Shown here: piece after piece, positions 21,626 to 34,072 of the stretch | Position numbering within the stretch: the first letter of the stretch is position 1 | Layout: the number at the start of each line of letters is the position of its first letter | From: Pseudomonas putida | GTDB lineage: Bacteria; Pseudomonadota; Gammaproteobacteria; Pseudomonadales; Pseudomonadaceae | Direction: 5' to 3' | NCBI RefSeq assembly: GCF_025905425.1 | Contig: NZ_CP109603.1 | Coordinates: 4,356,501-4,420,500, forward strand | DNA length: 64,000 nucleotides | Notes under the pieces: model-generated | Told to the model about the DNA's origin: nothing | Databases searched by the model: none | Seen by the model: only the letters and a program-made list of their open reading frames with translations | Made by a program: the position numbers and the translations under genes

Positions 21626-24477
21626 CAGTAACGCTCCACCAGCGCGCGAACCGCCGCGGCGCTGTCCTGTTGCAAGGCTTCGCGCGCCAGGGCGCGGGCC
21701 GTCTGGTGATCGGCCTGGCGGACCAGGGCTTTGACTTCGGCAATGCTGCGGGCGGCGACGCTCAATTCGTCCACATCCAGGCCAAGCAACACGGCCACCG
21801 CCTGCGGGTCGGCGGCCAGCTCGCCGCACACGCCCACCCACTTGCCTTCGGCATGGGCAGCGCGCACGGTCATGTCGATCAGGCTCAACACCGCCGGGTG
21901 CAGGCCGTCGGCCTGGGCCGAAAGGCTCGGGTGGCCACGGTCGATGGCCAGGGTGTATTGGGTCAGGTCGTTGGTGCCGATGCTGAAGAAGTCCACTTCG
22001 CGGGCCAACTGCGGCGCCAGCAAGGCTGCCGAGGGCACTTCGACCATGATGCCCAGTTGCAGGTCTGCCACCGGGATTTCCTCACGCAAGCGCTCGACCA
22101 TGGCCCGCGCTTCGCGCCATTCGTGCACCTGGCCGACCATCGGGAACATGATCCGCAGCGGGCGCTGGTCGGCTGCGCGCAGCAGTGCGCGCAACTGGTC
22201 TTCCATGATCTGCGGTTGCTGCAAGGTCAGGCGCACACCGCGCACGCCGAGGAAGGGGTTGTCTTCGGCAGCGATCGGCCAGTAAGGCAGCGGTTTGTCA
22301 CCGCCCACATCCAGGGTGCGCACCACCAGGGGCCGCCCACCGAGGCCATCGAGCACGCGGCGGTATTCGGCTTCCTGGGTGGCCACGTCCGGCGCCTGGG
22401 GGTGGGCCATGAAAATCAGTTCGGTGCGCAGCAAGCCGACGCCTTCGGCGCCCTGCTCCACGACCTTGTCGATACCGCTGCTCTCGCCGATGTTGGCGAA
22501 CACCTCGACGGCATGGCCATCGCGGGTGACTGCCGGCTCATGCCGGTCGGCCCAGGCCGCCTGCAGGCGCTGCTCGCGCTGGTCGCGCTCGGCCAGGGCG
22601 CGTTGCAGTTCAGCGGCCGCTGGGGCAACACTGACCACGCCGCGTTGCCCATCGAGCAGCAATGGCGTGCCGGCATCGAGCAGCAAAATCGCCGCACCGG
22701 CGCCGACTACAGCGGGGATGCCAAGGGCGCGGGCGACGATGGCGCTATGGGCCGTCGCGCCGCCCTGAGCGGTGACGATACCGGCAACCCGGCTCGGGTC
22801 CAGCCGGGCCACATCGGAAGGGCCGACCTCGGTCATCACCAGCACATAAGGCTGCTCAGGTTCAACGTGCGCCTGCACGCCGCACAATTGGGCCAGCACG
22901 CGGCGGCCGATGTCGCGCAGGTCGGCGGCACGTTCGGCGAGCAAAGCGTCGTGCAGCGACTCCTGCTGCCTCGCGGCCGCCTCAATCACTGCCATCCACG
23001 CCGCCGGGGCGCTTTCGCCCTGGGCCAGGCGCTGCTCGACATCGTCGGCCAACGCCGGGTCGGCGAGCATTTCCTGGTGAGTGACAAAGATCTCGCCAAT
23101 GGCCTTGTCGCTGCGCTGCACCAAGGTGTGCAGCTCGCTGTTCACCGTTGCCAAGGCATCGCGCAGCTTGACCCGTTCCTGGGCGAGGGATTCACCGCGC
23201 AGGGGGTAATCGATGGCGCGCTCGACGCAGACGTGGGCCGGCCCATGGGCGATGCCCGGCGCCGCGCCAACACCCTGGATCCGGCTGCCCGCAGCAGGTG
23301 CCTGAAGCACTTCCAGCGGCGTGCAGGCAAGCGGTGCAGGGCTTTGCGGCAGCGGCTCGACGTCCTCGCCCAGGCCTGCTTCGATGGCCGCCAGTAGCAC
23401 CGGCAACGCATCAGCGGCGATGCCGGGTTCGGCTATCAGCTCCAGTTCCTGGCCACGCCGGGCGCCGAGGCTGAGCAGCTTGCTCAGGCTTTTGACCGAC
23501 ACCGCCGGCTGCGCGCTGTCGGTAAGCCGCACCCGGACTTCACCCTCGAAGCCCTTGGCCAACTGCGCCAGCACCTTGGCCGGGCGGGCATGCAAACCAT
23601 GCGGGTTGGCCAGCACGATGCGCGCACTCGGCCAATCCACCGGCGCCTCGCCGCCCAGCACCTGCAGGACCGCACGGCTGTTGGTGGCCTGGTAGAGCAT
23701 CTGCCCGCGCCCTTCGATCAGCACCTCGCACAAGCGCTCAAGCAAGGCCTGATGAGCGGCGCCAAGGCTGGCCAGGCAGAACAGGCCGTTAAGCGGCTGA
23801 TCGCGATAGCGCAGGGGTTGCTGCGGGGTAATGAACGCCAGGCCAGGCTGGCGCACCTGGCGTTCGCTGTGCAGCCACCACAGGCCCTCGCCCAATGGCA
23901 ACGGCTCGGCCTGCTGCAGCACGGCAGCAAAGCCACTGTCGACGCAACCGGCGCGCTGCAGCAGGCGCGCACCGCGCCAGGCCAACTCATCGAAATCTTC
24001 AGCTGGCAGGTTCAGACCGACCAGTTGCGCATCCAGCGCCAACGCCTGCGGCGCGCCTTGCAACAGTTTGAGCAAGGCCTCGGCCGAGCTGGCCCGACGC
24101 AGCGCTTCGGCAAGGTCCGTCTCGCCCAGGGCGCGGGTCAGCAATTGCAGCAAGCGCAGGTGTTCATCGGAGCGGGCGGCAATGCCGATGGCCAGGTAGA
24201 CCCTTTGGCCATCACCCCAGTCCACGCCTTCGGGGAACTGCAGCAGGCGCACACCAGTGGTGTGGACCAGGTCCCGGGTCTGCGGTGTGCCGTGGGGGAT
24301 GGCAATGCCCTGGCCGAGGAACGTCGAGCCTTGCGCCTCGCGGGCCTGCAGGCCTTGCAGGTAGCCCTCGGCGACCAGGCCGTCGGCAACCAGCTGATCC
24401 GCCAGCAGGCGCAATGCCTCGGCCTTGTCCGCGGCCTTCTGGCCCATGGCTATTTGCCCTGTGGCGAGCTCGAGCAT
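21625..24477 (-). CDS. fruB: Fructose PTS multiphosphoryl transfer protein (EIIA-HPr-EI)
   Basis: A 950-residue fusion of the soluble PTS steps. EIIA(Fru) is N-terminal with His62 in GIAIPHG, HPr has His296 in NPHGLHARPA, and Enzyme I begins near 400 with phospho-His577 in GGATAHSAIV. It passes phosphate from phosphoenolpyruvate to FruA. The ATG at 24477 (MLELATGQIAMGQ) is favoured by an AAGGAGAAGGTC ribosome site. This PEP-to-EIIB fusion is the standard Pseudomonas arrangement. A Cra-type operator lies upstream. Confidence 0.95.
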   Translation of the reverse strand: MLELATGQIAMGQKAADKAEALRLLADQLVADGLVAEGYLQGLQAREAQGSTFLGQGIAIPHGTPQTRDLVHTTGVRLLQFPEGVDWGDGQRVYLAIGIAARSDEHLRLLQLLTRALGETDLAEALRRASSAEALLKLLQGAPQALALDAQLVGLNLPAEDFDELAWRGARLLQRAGCVDSGFAAVLQQAEPLPLGEGLWWLHSERQVRQPGLAFITPQQPLRYRDQPLNGLFCLASLGAAHQALLERLCEVLIEGRGQMLYQATNSRAVLQVLGGEAPVDWPSARIVLANPHGLHARPAKVLAQLAKGFEGEVRVRLTDSAQPAVSVKSLSKLLSLGARRGQELELIAEPGIAADALPVLLAAIEAGLGEDVEPLPQSPAPLACTPLEVLQAPAAGSRIQGVGAAPGIAHGPAHVCVERAIDYPLRGESLAQERVKLRDALATVNSELHTLVQRSDKAIGEIFVTHQEMLADPALADDVEQRLAQGESAPAAWMAVIEAAARQQESLHDALLAERAADLRDIGRRVLAQLCGVQAHVEPEQPYVLVMTEVGPSDVARLDPSRVAGIVTAQGGATAHSAIVARALGIPAVVGAGAAILLLDAGTPLLLDGQRGVVSVAPAAAELQRALAERDQREQRLQAAWADRHEPAVTRDGHAVEVFANIGESSGIDKVVEQGAEGVGLLRTELIFMAHPQAPDVATQEAEYRRVLDGLGGRPLVVRTLDVGGDKPLPYWPIAAEDNPFLGVRGVRLTLQQPQIMEDQLRALLRAADQRPLRIMFPMVGQVHEWREARAMVERLREEIPVADLQLGIMVEVPSAALLAPQLAREVDFFSIGTNDLTQYTLAIDRGHPSLSAQADGLHPAVLSLIDMTVRAAHAEGKWVGVCGELAADPQAVAVLLGLDVDELSVAARSIAEVKALVRQADHQTARALAREALQQDSAAAVRALVERY

Positions 24478-30552: not shown

Positions 30553-31401
30553 ATGCCGAACCTACGCCTCGCCGACCTGACCGCTGAAATCGAAGCCAAC
30601 GTGCGCCGCGCGCTGCTGGAGGACATCGGCAGTGGCGATATCACCGCGCAGCTGATCCCGGCCGAGCGCCTGGCCAAGGCGACCATCATTACCCGCGAGG
30701 ACTGCGTGATCGCTGGCACCGCCTGGGTCGATGCCGTGTTCCGCCAGCTCGACCCACGGGTGGCCGTGCACTGGCAGGTAGCCGACGGCGAGAGGGCGGT
30801 GGCCAACCAGCCGCTGTTCCACCTGGAAGGCCCGGCACGCTCGCTGCTCAGTGGTGAGCGTAGCGCGCTGAACTTCCTGCAGATGTTGTCTGGTGTCGCC
30901 ACGCGCGCGCGCTTTCTGGCCGACATGGTCGAAGGGACCCAGGTACGCCTTCTCGACACCCGCAAGACCCTCCCAGGCCTGCGCCTGGCGCAAAAGTATG
31001 CGGTCACCTGCGGCGGTTGCGACAACCACCGTATCGGCCTTTACGACGCCTTCCTGATCAAGGAAAACCACATCGCCGCCAGCGGTGGCGTGGCCGAGGC
31101 AGTGGCGGCGGCGCACCGTATCGCCCCTGGCAAGCCGGTGGAAATCGAGGTGGAAAGCCTGGACGAACTGCGCCAGGCCCTGAATGCGGGTGCAGATATC
31201 GTCATGCTCGACGAGCTGACCCTGGATGAAATGCGCGAAGCGGTGCGCATCACCGCAGGCAAGGCCAAACTTGAGGCCAGCGGCGGCGTCAACGAGAGCA
31301 CTTTGCGGGTTATTGCCGAGACTGGCGTCGATTACATCTCCATTGGTGCCATGACCAAGGATGTGAAAGCCGTTGACCTGTCGATGCGCTTGAGCCTCTG
31401 A
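30553..31401 (+). CDS. nadC: Nicotinate-nucleotide pyrophosphorylase
   Basis: A 282-residue quinolinate phosphoribosyltransferase that forms nicotinate mononucleotide in NAD synthesis. Signatures are [50 protein letters not shown] and the C-terminal [23 protein letters not shown] at 30553 is chosen over a GTG at 30541. A TATAAT at 30519-30524 is a likely -10 element. Downstream lies the IS110 element. Confidence 0.96.
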
Positions 31402-31439
31402 GGGCGCGCGGCGCTTGTACCCCGGATAACATGGGTCAT

Positions 31440-31447
31440 TGTGGGAG
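31440..31447. repeat. Split REP target, nadC-side half
   Basis: TGTGGGAG is the outer end of the REP that the IS110 element interrupts. The rest of the REP continues at 32691. Confidence 0.85.
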
Positions 31448-31460
31448 CAACTGTCTTCTT

Positions 31461-31544
31461 GTGGAAGCTGGCCTTGCCGGCGATGGGGCGCGTAGCGCCC
31501 CAGGCCCGGCTGTGCCGGGCATCGCCAGCAAGGCTTGCTCCTAC
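31461..31544. repeat. REP-like inverted pair inside the IS110 3' end
   Basis: GTGGAAGCTGGCCTTGCCGG at the left faces CCAGCAAGGCTTGCTCCTAC at the right, with GGGGCGCGTAGCGCCCC and GCCCGGCTGTGCCGGGC hairpins between. It lies inside the element ends. The transposase stop codon (31541-31543) is part of the right arm, so the palindrome could serve as terminator and may have set the protein's C-terminus. Confidence 0.75.
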
Positions 31545-32476
31545 GAATGAGCTATTTGCTCCTTCCAGGGCGTTCCGGTCTTGAGCATCGCATTTAGCCT
31601 CACTATCAATACTCGCATACACGCCACCACCGATACTTTCGCGCACTTCCCCTGGGCTCGCAGTGCTTTGTAGCGCTCGCAGAAGTCCTTGTTGTGCCGT
31701 ATCACCACCCAGCAGGCCATATAGAGCGCCCGCCTGACTTGTGAGCGCCCCCCCCAGATTGAACGCTTGCCCGACTGCTTGCCGCTGTCCTGGTTGAACG
31801 GCGCAACACCGACCAAGGCGGCAATTTCCTTCTTATCCACCTGGCCCAGCTCTGGCAGCAAGGCCATCAGCTTTCCGGCAGTAATCAGACCAATTCCTTT
31901 GACTTGAGTGAGCTGTTTAACCCGGTCATCAGGCAAAGCTGCTGCCTGCTGTGCGATCTCTTGTTCCAGCGCTCGAATTTCACCCTTCAGATAGGCGATG
32001 TGTTGTTCCAACCGCAAACAAACACTGGGAGCCCGCGCCTGCTTCAGGCGCCGCTTGTCATCGTCGCGCTGTTGGACGAAGCGATCCCGCTGCATAAGCA
32101 GTTCGCGCAGCAAGGCCCGCTCGGGTGTCATCACCTGGCAAGGCCGTGGGGGCATAACTTCAGCCAGGTGAGCCAAAACAGCTGCGTCAATGGGATCGGT
32201 CTTGGCGCGTTTACCCATCGACTTGGCAAAGTCCCGGGCACGACTGGGATTGATCCGGCAAACCGGAAAATCGGCATCCTGCAGCGCTTTGAGGACATTG
32301 CACTCGTAGCCACCGGTAGCTTCGAGCAAGACCATTGAAACTGCATACCCGCCAAGCTTTTCGACGAGCAGTTGGAATCCCTTCAAGTCATTGGAAACAC
32401 TGAAGTTCACCCCCTCAGGGCGGATGTGAACAGCAAGTGTGGCACTGGAAACATCGATGCCGACAGAGGAAGACAT
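31541..32476 (-). CDS. IS110-family transposase (DEDD recombinase)
   Basis: A 311-residue RNA-guided-type recombinase. The N-terminal RuvC-like DEDD site is visible as Asp8 (VGIDVSS), Glu52 (LLEATGGYE), Asp94 and Asp97 (KTDPIDAAVLAH). A coiled-coil stretch follows at about 130-180, then the C-terminal Transposase_20 domain with VKGIGLITA and the catalytic Ser231 in NQDSGKQSG. All key residues are present, so it looks active. ATG at 32476 follows AAGAGGG, and a TTG two codons earlier is less likely. The gene lies downstream of its bridge RNA on the same strand, the IS110-group layout. Confidence 0.93.
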   Translation of the reverse strand: MSSSVGIDVSSATLAVHIRPEGVNFSVSNDLKGFQLLVEKLGGYAVSMVLLEATGGYECNVLKALQDADFPVCRINPSRARDFAKSMGKRAKTDPIDAAVLAHLAEVMPPRPCQVMTPERALLRELLMQRDRFVQQRDDDKRRLKQARAPSVCLRLEQHIAYLKGEIRALEQEIAQQAAALPDDRVKQLTQVKGIGLITAGKLMALLPELGQVDKKEIAALVGVAPFNQDSGKQSGKRSIWGGRSQVRRALYMACWVVIRHNKDFCERYKALRAQGKCAKVSVVACMRVLIVRLNAMLKTGTPWKEQIAHS

Positions 32477-32501
32477 GGCCAAACCCTCTTAAACTCAAGG
32501 A

Positions 32502-32659
32502 GTGAGAGCGCTTTGGCTTGGCCCACGCTTGTGATTCGAGATTACGCCCCTCATCCAACTGTTCGGGCTCTCGCCAAAGTGGAACGGTGAATGGCAGCTT
32601 TTGCTCCCACACGTGCTCTGGGCACCTCGGGCTATCAGCTTGCCATTCACCGCTCTCAC
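32502..32659 (-). ncRNA. Predicted IS110 bridge RNA
   Basis: On the transposase strand, GTGAGAGCG (32659-32651) and CGCTCTCAC (32510-32502) close a domain holding two hairpins. The target loop has stem CGGTGAATGGC/GCCATTCACCG (32652-32642 with 32595-32585), left guide AGCCCG (32633-32628), apical GTGC/GCAC and right guide TGTGGGAG (32611-32604). The donor loop has stem CTTTGGC/GCCAAAG (32579-32573 with 32517-32511), left guide ACAGTTG (32562-32556) and right guide CACAAG (32533-32528). The left guides copy the left flank of the REP and the element's right end. The right guides complement the other sides including the CT core. The pairing is visible in the sequence. The role is inferred from IS621-type bridge RNAs. 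Confidence 0.82.
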
Positions 32660-32664
32660 TTCAG

Positions 32665-32690
32665 ATTCTATTCCCTCTCCAAGACACAAG
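32665..32690 (-). promoter_or_regulatory. Junction promoter half for the bridge RNA
   Basis: On the transposase strand TAGAAT (32670-32665) is a good -10. If the element circularises, its right end (GTTG), the CT core and the first base of the left end form TTGCTT, exactly 17 bases upstream of TAGAAT. Transcription would then start at about 32658, right at the closing stem of the RNA. In the integrated state the -35 is replaced by REP sequence. Confidence 0.6.
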
Positions 32691-32722
32691 CGGGCTTGCC
32701 CGCGAAGCGGCCCGAACAGGCG
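32691..32722. repeat. Split REP target, trxB-side half
   Basis: CGGGCTTGCCCGCGAAGCGG continues the REP interrupted by the IS110 element. Confidence 0.85.
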
Positions 32723-32739
32723 CAGCAAATTCCAGGCAT

Positions 32740-32770
32740 AAAAAAACCGGCCAGATGGCCGGTTTTTTTT
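32740..32770. terminator. Bidirectional intrinsic terminator of trxB
   Basis: AAAAAAACCGGCCAGATGGC continues into CGGTTTTTTTT, a GC stem with A and T runs on both sides. It lies 11 bases after the trxB stop and can work on both strands. Confidence 0.95.
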
Positions 32771-32780
32771 CGGGCATGGA

Positions 32781-34072
<1,292 letters not shown>

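Follow-up and report, generated by a model that had tools for sequence, protein, structure and literature searches.

An IS110-group element of the ISPpu10 kind in Pseudomonas putida: its predicted bridge RNA, guide and target changes among its relatives, and a candidate antisense partner

What directs an IS110 element of Pseudomonas putida into REPs, and what part does the noncoding stretch upstream of its transposase gene play? ISPpu9 and ISPpu10 are both known to insert in REPs, and ISPpu10, of the P. putida IS110 group, is described as leaving a 2-bp direct repeat at its REP insertion (PMC1525189). The element considered here lies in a stretch of 64,000 nucleotides (hereafter, the window) of a 6.14 Mb, single-contig P. 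putida genome. We assign it to the IS110 bridge-RNA elements of the ISPpu10 kind; it is related or identical to ISPpu10, the two being likened on the basis of published descriptions. ISPpu10 is likewise REP-inserted, with a predicted four-guide bridge RNA, and is one of the six elements for which Extended Data Fig. 10c of Durrant 2024 (PMC11208160) gives predictions of bridge RNA and guides. Because that RNA had already been predicted, our finding is a correct rediscovery and not a discovery; new here are a table of natural re-programming, two stem-less insertion sites, and a possible link between the Rfam family sX15, antisense RNA and bridge RNAs. We are highly confident that the element is an IS110-group insertion sequence, active now or until recently, whose insertion into AGCCCG-CT-CCCACA targets is RNA-guided. 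Its parts are listed below.

31440..31445, minus strand: right target flank CCCACA, complemented by the right target guide (sequence and copies)
31446..31447, AG on the plus and CT on the minus strand: core dinucleotide at the right end of the element, common to 27/27 copies
31448..31454, minus strand: right end (left donor) ACAGTTG, equal to the left donor guide
31448..32688, minus strand: IS110 element between the cores, 1,241 bp, with 27 full-length copies in the genome
31541..32482, minus strand: transposase/recombinase with DEDD_Tnp_IS110 and Transposase_20 domains, TTG start or internal ATG (32476)
32685..32688, minus strand: left end (right donor) TGTG, complemented by the right donor guide
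32689..32690, AG/CT: core dinucleotide at the left end of the element (sequence and copy comparison)
32691..32696, minus strand: left target flank AGCCCG, half of a REP stem (sequence and copies)

The family assignment rests on several features of the protein and of the ends. The transposase, of 313 aa, carries both PF01548 and PF02371 above their cut-offs, that is, the DEDD RuvC-like and Transposase_20 domains of the IS110 family in a protein within the expected range of about 300-460 aa. It scores 216.7 bits against the NCBIfam model NF033542, 'IS110 family RNA-guided transposase' (cut-off 140), and among solved structures it matches two, the transposases of ISCro4 and IS621. The C-terminal G--P----SG motif described for the family (PMC11187229) is present in the translation as GVAPFNQDSG. 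The noncoding left end (LE) measures 206 bp upstream of the gene, versus 93 bp downstream for the right end (RE); this long upstream and short downstream end is the arrangement of the IS110 group and not of IS1111. An in-frame TGA in several related transposases was considered as an oddity and dropped: in the aligned loci it is the natural stop near residue 306 of 310 or lies outside the aligned stretch, the homology search having read on past the natural stop. A separate observation concerns locus L147 of genome G132, whose transposase gene is interrupted by an in-frame TAG (aligned position 216 of 294), and in which all four guides match the ends and flanks.

A DNA query consisting of the LE and the gene start found 27 places in the genome at 99-100% identity. 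All 27 copies have the same two ends and the same length, and each is inserted between A(G/A)CCCG-CT on the left and CT-CCCAC(A/C) on the right, the variant flanks being AACCCG in place of AGCCCG in copy L026 and CCCACC in place of CCCACA in copy L022. Such uniform flanks would be uninformative on guidance if the copies had spread by REP-REP recombination or duplication, as might be suspected of L015 and L025, which have identical right flanks for 21 bases beyond the target and different left flanks. The flanks outside the REP otherwise differ among the copies, however, and relatives with other guides have other flanks (see below), and we give this explanation practically no weight. A search of 38 genomes with the two flanks of the window insertion joined gave no intact empty REP site; G007 and G024 have both flanks, separated by a few bases that comprise neither the element nor a REP.

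The first-pass annotation had read the noncoding stretch upstream of the transposase as a closed two-loop RNA with four guides, located as follows (LTG and RTG, left and right target guides; LDG and RDG, left and right donor guides).

32502..32659, minus strand: bridge RNA, predicted extent (fold, alignment, covariance model)
32628..32633, minus strand: LTG AGCCCG, equal to the left flank, without the core
32604..32611, minus strand: RTG TGTGGGAG, 8 nt including the core, complementary to the right flank
32556..32562, minus strand: LDG ACAGTTG, equal to the element's right end, without the core
32528..32533, minus strand: RDG CACAAG, including the core, complementary to the left end

The predicted RNA ends 19 nt upstream of the transposase gene, and the minus strand from 32659 to 32502 folds into a closed two-branch structure of -74.5 kcal/mol (z -5.63), a value reached by none of 200 dinucleotide shuffles; a longer version of the stretch gave a z of -5.33. 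The two-loop claim thus held, as did the claimed equality of LTG with one flank and of LDG with the right end, and the claimed complementarity, CT core included, of RTG to the other flank and of RDG to the left end. Single 6-mers are weak evidence, since AGCCCG occurs in 1,801 and CACAAG in 1,458 of 20,000 dinucleotide shuffles of the RNA (9% and 7%); all four words together occurred in none of the 20,000, at least three in 2, and at least two in 193. A similar arrangement is described for IS621, which likewise has a related recombinase, an RNA upstream of the gene with two loops, a CT core and REP insertion (PMC11208160). In IS621, however, the core takes part in all four guide pairings (PMC11208160), whereas here CT is contained only in RTG and RDG, and the element is therefore a variant in core inclusion. 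It also differs from IS621 in its 8-nt RTG, in its 6-nt LTG without core, and in the REP sequence that is targeted.

Support for the fold also comes from related RNAs. Alignment A1 comprises 24 of the 28 listed distinct bridge RNAs, from 21 genomes, and in it 13 of the 45 predicted pairs are kept by changes on both sides. With the guide-region pairs removed, 11 of 39 stem pairs are compensatory, and the covariation score was reached by 0 of 500 shuffles, a comparison that overstates stem covariation because the aligned sequences are related. The non-guide stems are paired in 98.4% of cells, versus 29-44% when slid. Further pair types are not above the shuffles (20 observed, 21.0 expected), and the outer closing stem has no compensatory pair in the 24 RNAs. 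The two-loop fold is conserved and its stems co-vary; stems devoid of covariation, which the first-pass annotation had named as evidence against its reading, are not what the alignment holds. The covariance model of the 24 RNAs also matches the left ends of five distant groups absent from its alignment (G409, G132, G269, G188b and G339) at 27-50 bits.

The most direct evidence on guidance is whether guides change together with flanks. A search of 398 genomes of the genus, with a threshold of E 1e-30, found relatives in 33, this one included. Of these, 28 entered the analysis (G068, G142, G158, G197 and G229 were left out), with at most five matches scored per genome for the relatives, and 102 stretches were taken, 27 from this genome and 75 from others. 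The end-finder dropped 14 loci: L028, nine loci of G339/G188b, L145, L146, L117 and L147. The ends of all of these were placed by hand, as distant relatives' ends were placed by eye, except for L028, whose ends were read in the copy comparison, and L117, which was excluded from the guide counts. For L145, L146 and L163 no right end was found and the left side only was used. The guide counts refer to 84 usable elements of 89, five rows having been dropped, and many of the 84 are copies of one element.

In these 84 elements, the four matches lie in the expected arms, as had been claimed for the window element. LTG matches its flank exactly in 28, exactly with G-U pairs allowed in 60, and within one mismatch in 80. 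All 8 bases of RTG match in 67 elements and the last 7 in 82; LDG matches at 7/7 bases in 73; all 6 bases of RDG match in 58 and the last 5 in 84. For a permutation test the genomes were sorted by commonest target into 11 target classes, 9 of which have a known right end and were used on the right side, and each class was represented by its first genome, chosen regardless of match. The length of the guide-arm match to the class's own flank was then compared with the match to every other class's flank. On the left side the own-flank sum was 59, against a permuted mean of 39.8 (3 of 200,000 permutations as high); on the right side, with 9 classes, it was 67 against 41.3 (58 of 200,000); and for both sides together it was 112 against 74.3 (11 of 200,000). 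The covariation of guides and flanks among homologues that the first-pass annotation had proposed to look for is thus found. The opposite outcome, in which the same guides stand beside unrelated flanks, did not occur, frequent as mismatches in the left guide are.

Individual relatives illustrate how both partners change. In G018, the element is inserted at AATTCG and the guide reads CATTCG. In G364 the right flank has changed to CCTACA and the right guide has changed too, and in G161 (target CGCCCC/TCCTAC) right flank and right guide are again both changed. In G132 (target GCGCTC/ACAGTT) the insertion site is CGCTC-CT-ACAGT, and the guides read CGCTCCT and ACTGTAG. The nine copies of G339/G188b are sited in a different dispersed repeat, TGTGCC/CACTCC, with matching guides; their left flank is TGTGCC in 8 of 9 copies (TGTTCC in L151), and their right flank is CACTCC in 7 of 9 (CTCTCC in L155 and L156). 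A placement of their left end at an earlier CT was rejected, no guide match being found there. The later placement is supported independently by the abundance of unfilled joined targets: allowing up to one mismatch, there are 74 and 33 of them, and none for the reversed control. Imperfect cases are also present: G308 has the guide AGCCCG and flanks AACCCG or AGGCCG in 4 of 5 copies, and the three copies fetched from G165 (L135-L137) are all at AGCCCC-CT with the guide TGCCCG, the mismatch lying next to the core. A scan of viral contigs confirmed no relative; a protein search of plasmids found relatives in 98 records, none reaching 60% identity, and a DNA search of plasmids gave one 11% piece.

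A different explanation is that the recombinase itself recognizes the REP hairpin and that the structured RNA is a 5' UTR hiding the ribosome-binding site, as was proposed for ISPpu9 in 2021 (PMC8450116). The placement of 25 of the 27 copies in a REP stem agrees with it, and in reporter experiments on ISPpu9 the structure of the 5' UTR is described as lowering translation (PMC8450116). The genome contains 732 exact, uninterrupted 13-mer target sites, AGCCCGCTCCCAC (reversed control, 0), of which 708 have CGGG 1-6 bases upstream. The two filled sites lacking the CGGG stem, L022 and L025, match the guides; the stem-less share, 2/27 of filled sites, is not far from 24/732 of uninterrupted ones, although these numbers are small and the stem criteria differ slightly, the version for filled sites having also allowed AACCCG. 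As these two of 27 copies occupy guide-matching sites without a stem, the palindrome is apparently dispensable, and it seems not to be required for insertion; REPs would be targeted because they carry the guide's complement. Hairpin recognition would, moreover, leave the four matches in the right arms unexplained, and the guides change with the flank across relatives, including those in a different dispersed repeat. We consider it very unlikely, while a UTR role of the same region may exist in addition to guiding. With 27 copies and over 700 further exact targets in one genome, this system offers a clean natural test of RNA-guided transposition, and the relatives that switched target together with guides add to its value.

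That the RNA guides insertion into P. putida REPs, as the first-pass annotation inferred, is supported by stem covariation, guide-flank covariation and the family models; the analysis establishes the anatomy, the predicted fold, both kinds of covariation and the 27 matching sites. By analogy with IS621, the recombinase would bind the RNA transcribed from the left end, of which loop 1 (LTG/RTG) would pair with both strands of the 14-bp target AGCCCG-CT-CCCACA, present in hundreds of REPs. The excised circle would join RE to LE at the CT core, and loop 2 (LDG/RDG) would pair with the joined circle ends, ACAGTTG-CT-TGTG. Recombination at the CT core would then insert the element and leave CT at both ends. 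The position of one further motif points to a promoter for the bridge RNA across the circle joint.

32665..32670, minus strand: -10-like TAGAAT for the bridge RNA, a putative promoter element, with TAnnnT in 27/28 distinct left ends

In the circle, TTGCTT across the RE-CT-LE joint would sit 17 nt upstream of TAGAAT as a putative -35, and transcription of the bridge RNA would begin at 32659, six bases past TAGAAT. In the inserted form, a sigma-70 consensus scan of 31400-32800 gave no promoter on either strand.

The opposite strand of the same region raises a second question, namely whether the bridge RNA has an antisense partner. Two features bear on it.

32490..32495, plus strand: -10-like TAAACT of a predicted antisense RNA starting near 32502 (+), with TAnnnT in 28/28 left ends, a role assigned by position
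32501..32665, plus strand: match to Rfam RF02234 (sX15), full model length, 45.0 bits, E 1.5e-6 (gathering score 55)

On the antisense side, all 28 distinct left ends have a TAnnnT box, which ends 4-7 bases beyond the RNA. On the sense side, a script found it 4-6 bases outside in 27 of 28; G165, cut short by the script, aligns as TAAGCT. At other offsets from 0 to 21, TAnnnT occurs in no more than 1 of 28. The 28 left ends are related and several come from one genome, so they are not independent events; the middle bases of TAnnnT differ among them. No good -35 was seen on the antisense side. sX15, described by Rfam as a Xanthomonadaceae sRNA, is the only Rfam match in 32440-32720 at E up to 10, and it covers the full 159 model positions on the strand opposite the bridge RNA; at 45.0 bits the window locus falls below the gathering score of the family. 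Other Rfam matches beside the element (STnc370, Leu_leader, RNAI and others) were far below their cut-offs and were set aside.

Of 20 related loci, 15 have an sX15 match (E up to 0.1), the best match in each being antisense to the transposase, and 5 have no match at that threshold; 5 of the 20 exceed the gathering score (56 to 120 bits). Loci where sX15 reads as the complement of the bridge RNA are the window locus, L163, L147, L093, L098 and L134. L163 comes from the sole genome over threshold in an sX15 search of 274 genomes of the class, and is not independent support because it was found via sX15. At L163, an IS110 transposase fragment has the sX15 match immediately upstream of it; the left flank, TAACGC-CT, is identical to the left guide predicted for this locus, and a second, weaker sX15 match stands on the transposase's own strand (35.8 bits). 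In that search of the class, which was stricter than the scan of the window, neither this genome nor 14 control genomes gave a match. Judged from sequence and location, and with the strand of sX15 resting on the Rfam model, Rfam sX15 resembles a complement of IS110 bridge RNAs.

A published antisense RNA provides a parallel. ISPpu9 likewise has a REP target, an AG/CT repeat and a long structured 5' region, and its Asr9 is described as a very stable RNA of about 180 nt, antisense to the region upstream of the transposase, with a -10 that overlaps the ribosome-binding site (PMC8450116), as the putative one of the window element would. The TAnnnT boxes, the sX15 match and Asr9 together suggest that the element has an antisense partner RNA with its own promoter.

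One could go further and suppose that the antisense RNA, of sX15/Asr9 type, is the functional small RNA and the sense RNA merely its complement. Both catalogued RNAs, sX15 and Asr9, are indeed on the antisense strand, and overproduction of the stable Asr9 is reported to raise ISPpu9 transposition about 3- to 4-fold (PMC8450116). On each side, however, an antisense RNA would pair with the other strand. The tested RNAs of IS621 and ISEc21 reportedly run in the direction of the gene. They are described as products of the element end that precedes the transposase gene (PMC11208160, PMC11187229), and we regard a functional antisense RNA with a passive sense strand as extremely unlikely.

With the sense strand retained as the bridge RNA, a tentative proposal, which we think somewhat more likely to fail than to hold, is that bridge RNAs commonly have 'anti-bridge RNA' partners, and that sX15, Asr9 and the RNA from near 32502 (+) are such partners, which set the frequency of RNA-guided transposition. 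The antisense RNA would act by base-pairing, either with the bridge RNA or with the leader of the transposase. Searches of the open literature listed no paper that connects sX15 or Asr9 to bridge RNAs, apart from the citation of the ISPpu9 small RNAs in Durrant 2024. If the antisense part is true, an Rfam small RNA and a puzzling ISPpu9 regulator would belong to one class of RNA, and there would be a natural regulator to study for IS110-based editing tools.

In five of seven ISPpu9 copies a second RNA, Ssr9, is described downstream (PMC8450116). The window genome differs in this respect: a genome search with the bridge-RNA model R1 gave 54 matches, namely the 27 known left ends and 27 weak matches on their complements, and no orphan bridge RNA was found in this genome at E up to 1. 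The one other R1 match in the window, at 22084-22247 (12.4 bits, E 0.46), is at chance level. Orphan ssr9 copies of P. putida KT2440 are described as flanked by A and B boxes and located in non-REP places (PMC8450116); from this description, they read like small non-autonomous elements with a second bridge RNA and another target.

Two minor observations concern the right end. A second REP-like inverted repeat, GAGCAAGCCTTGCTGGCGATG ... CATCGCCGGCAAGGCCAGCTTCCAC, is present in the RE of the window element (31455-31540), L088 and L157, and is absent from shorter relatives such as L093 and L098. The right end of L128, L130 and L135 holds GCTGTGGGAG(T/C)TTGGCTGTCTT, an inverted near-copy of the end-plus-target sequence AAGACAGTTG-CT-CCCACA.
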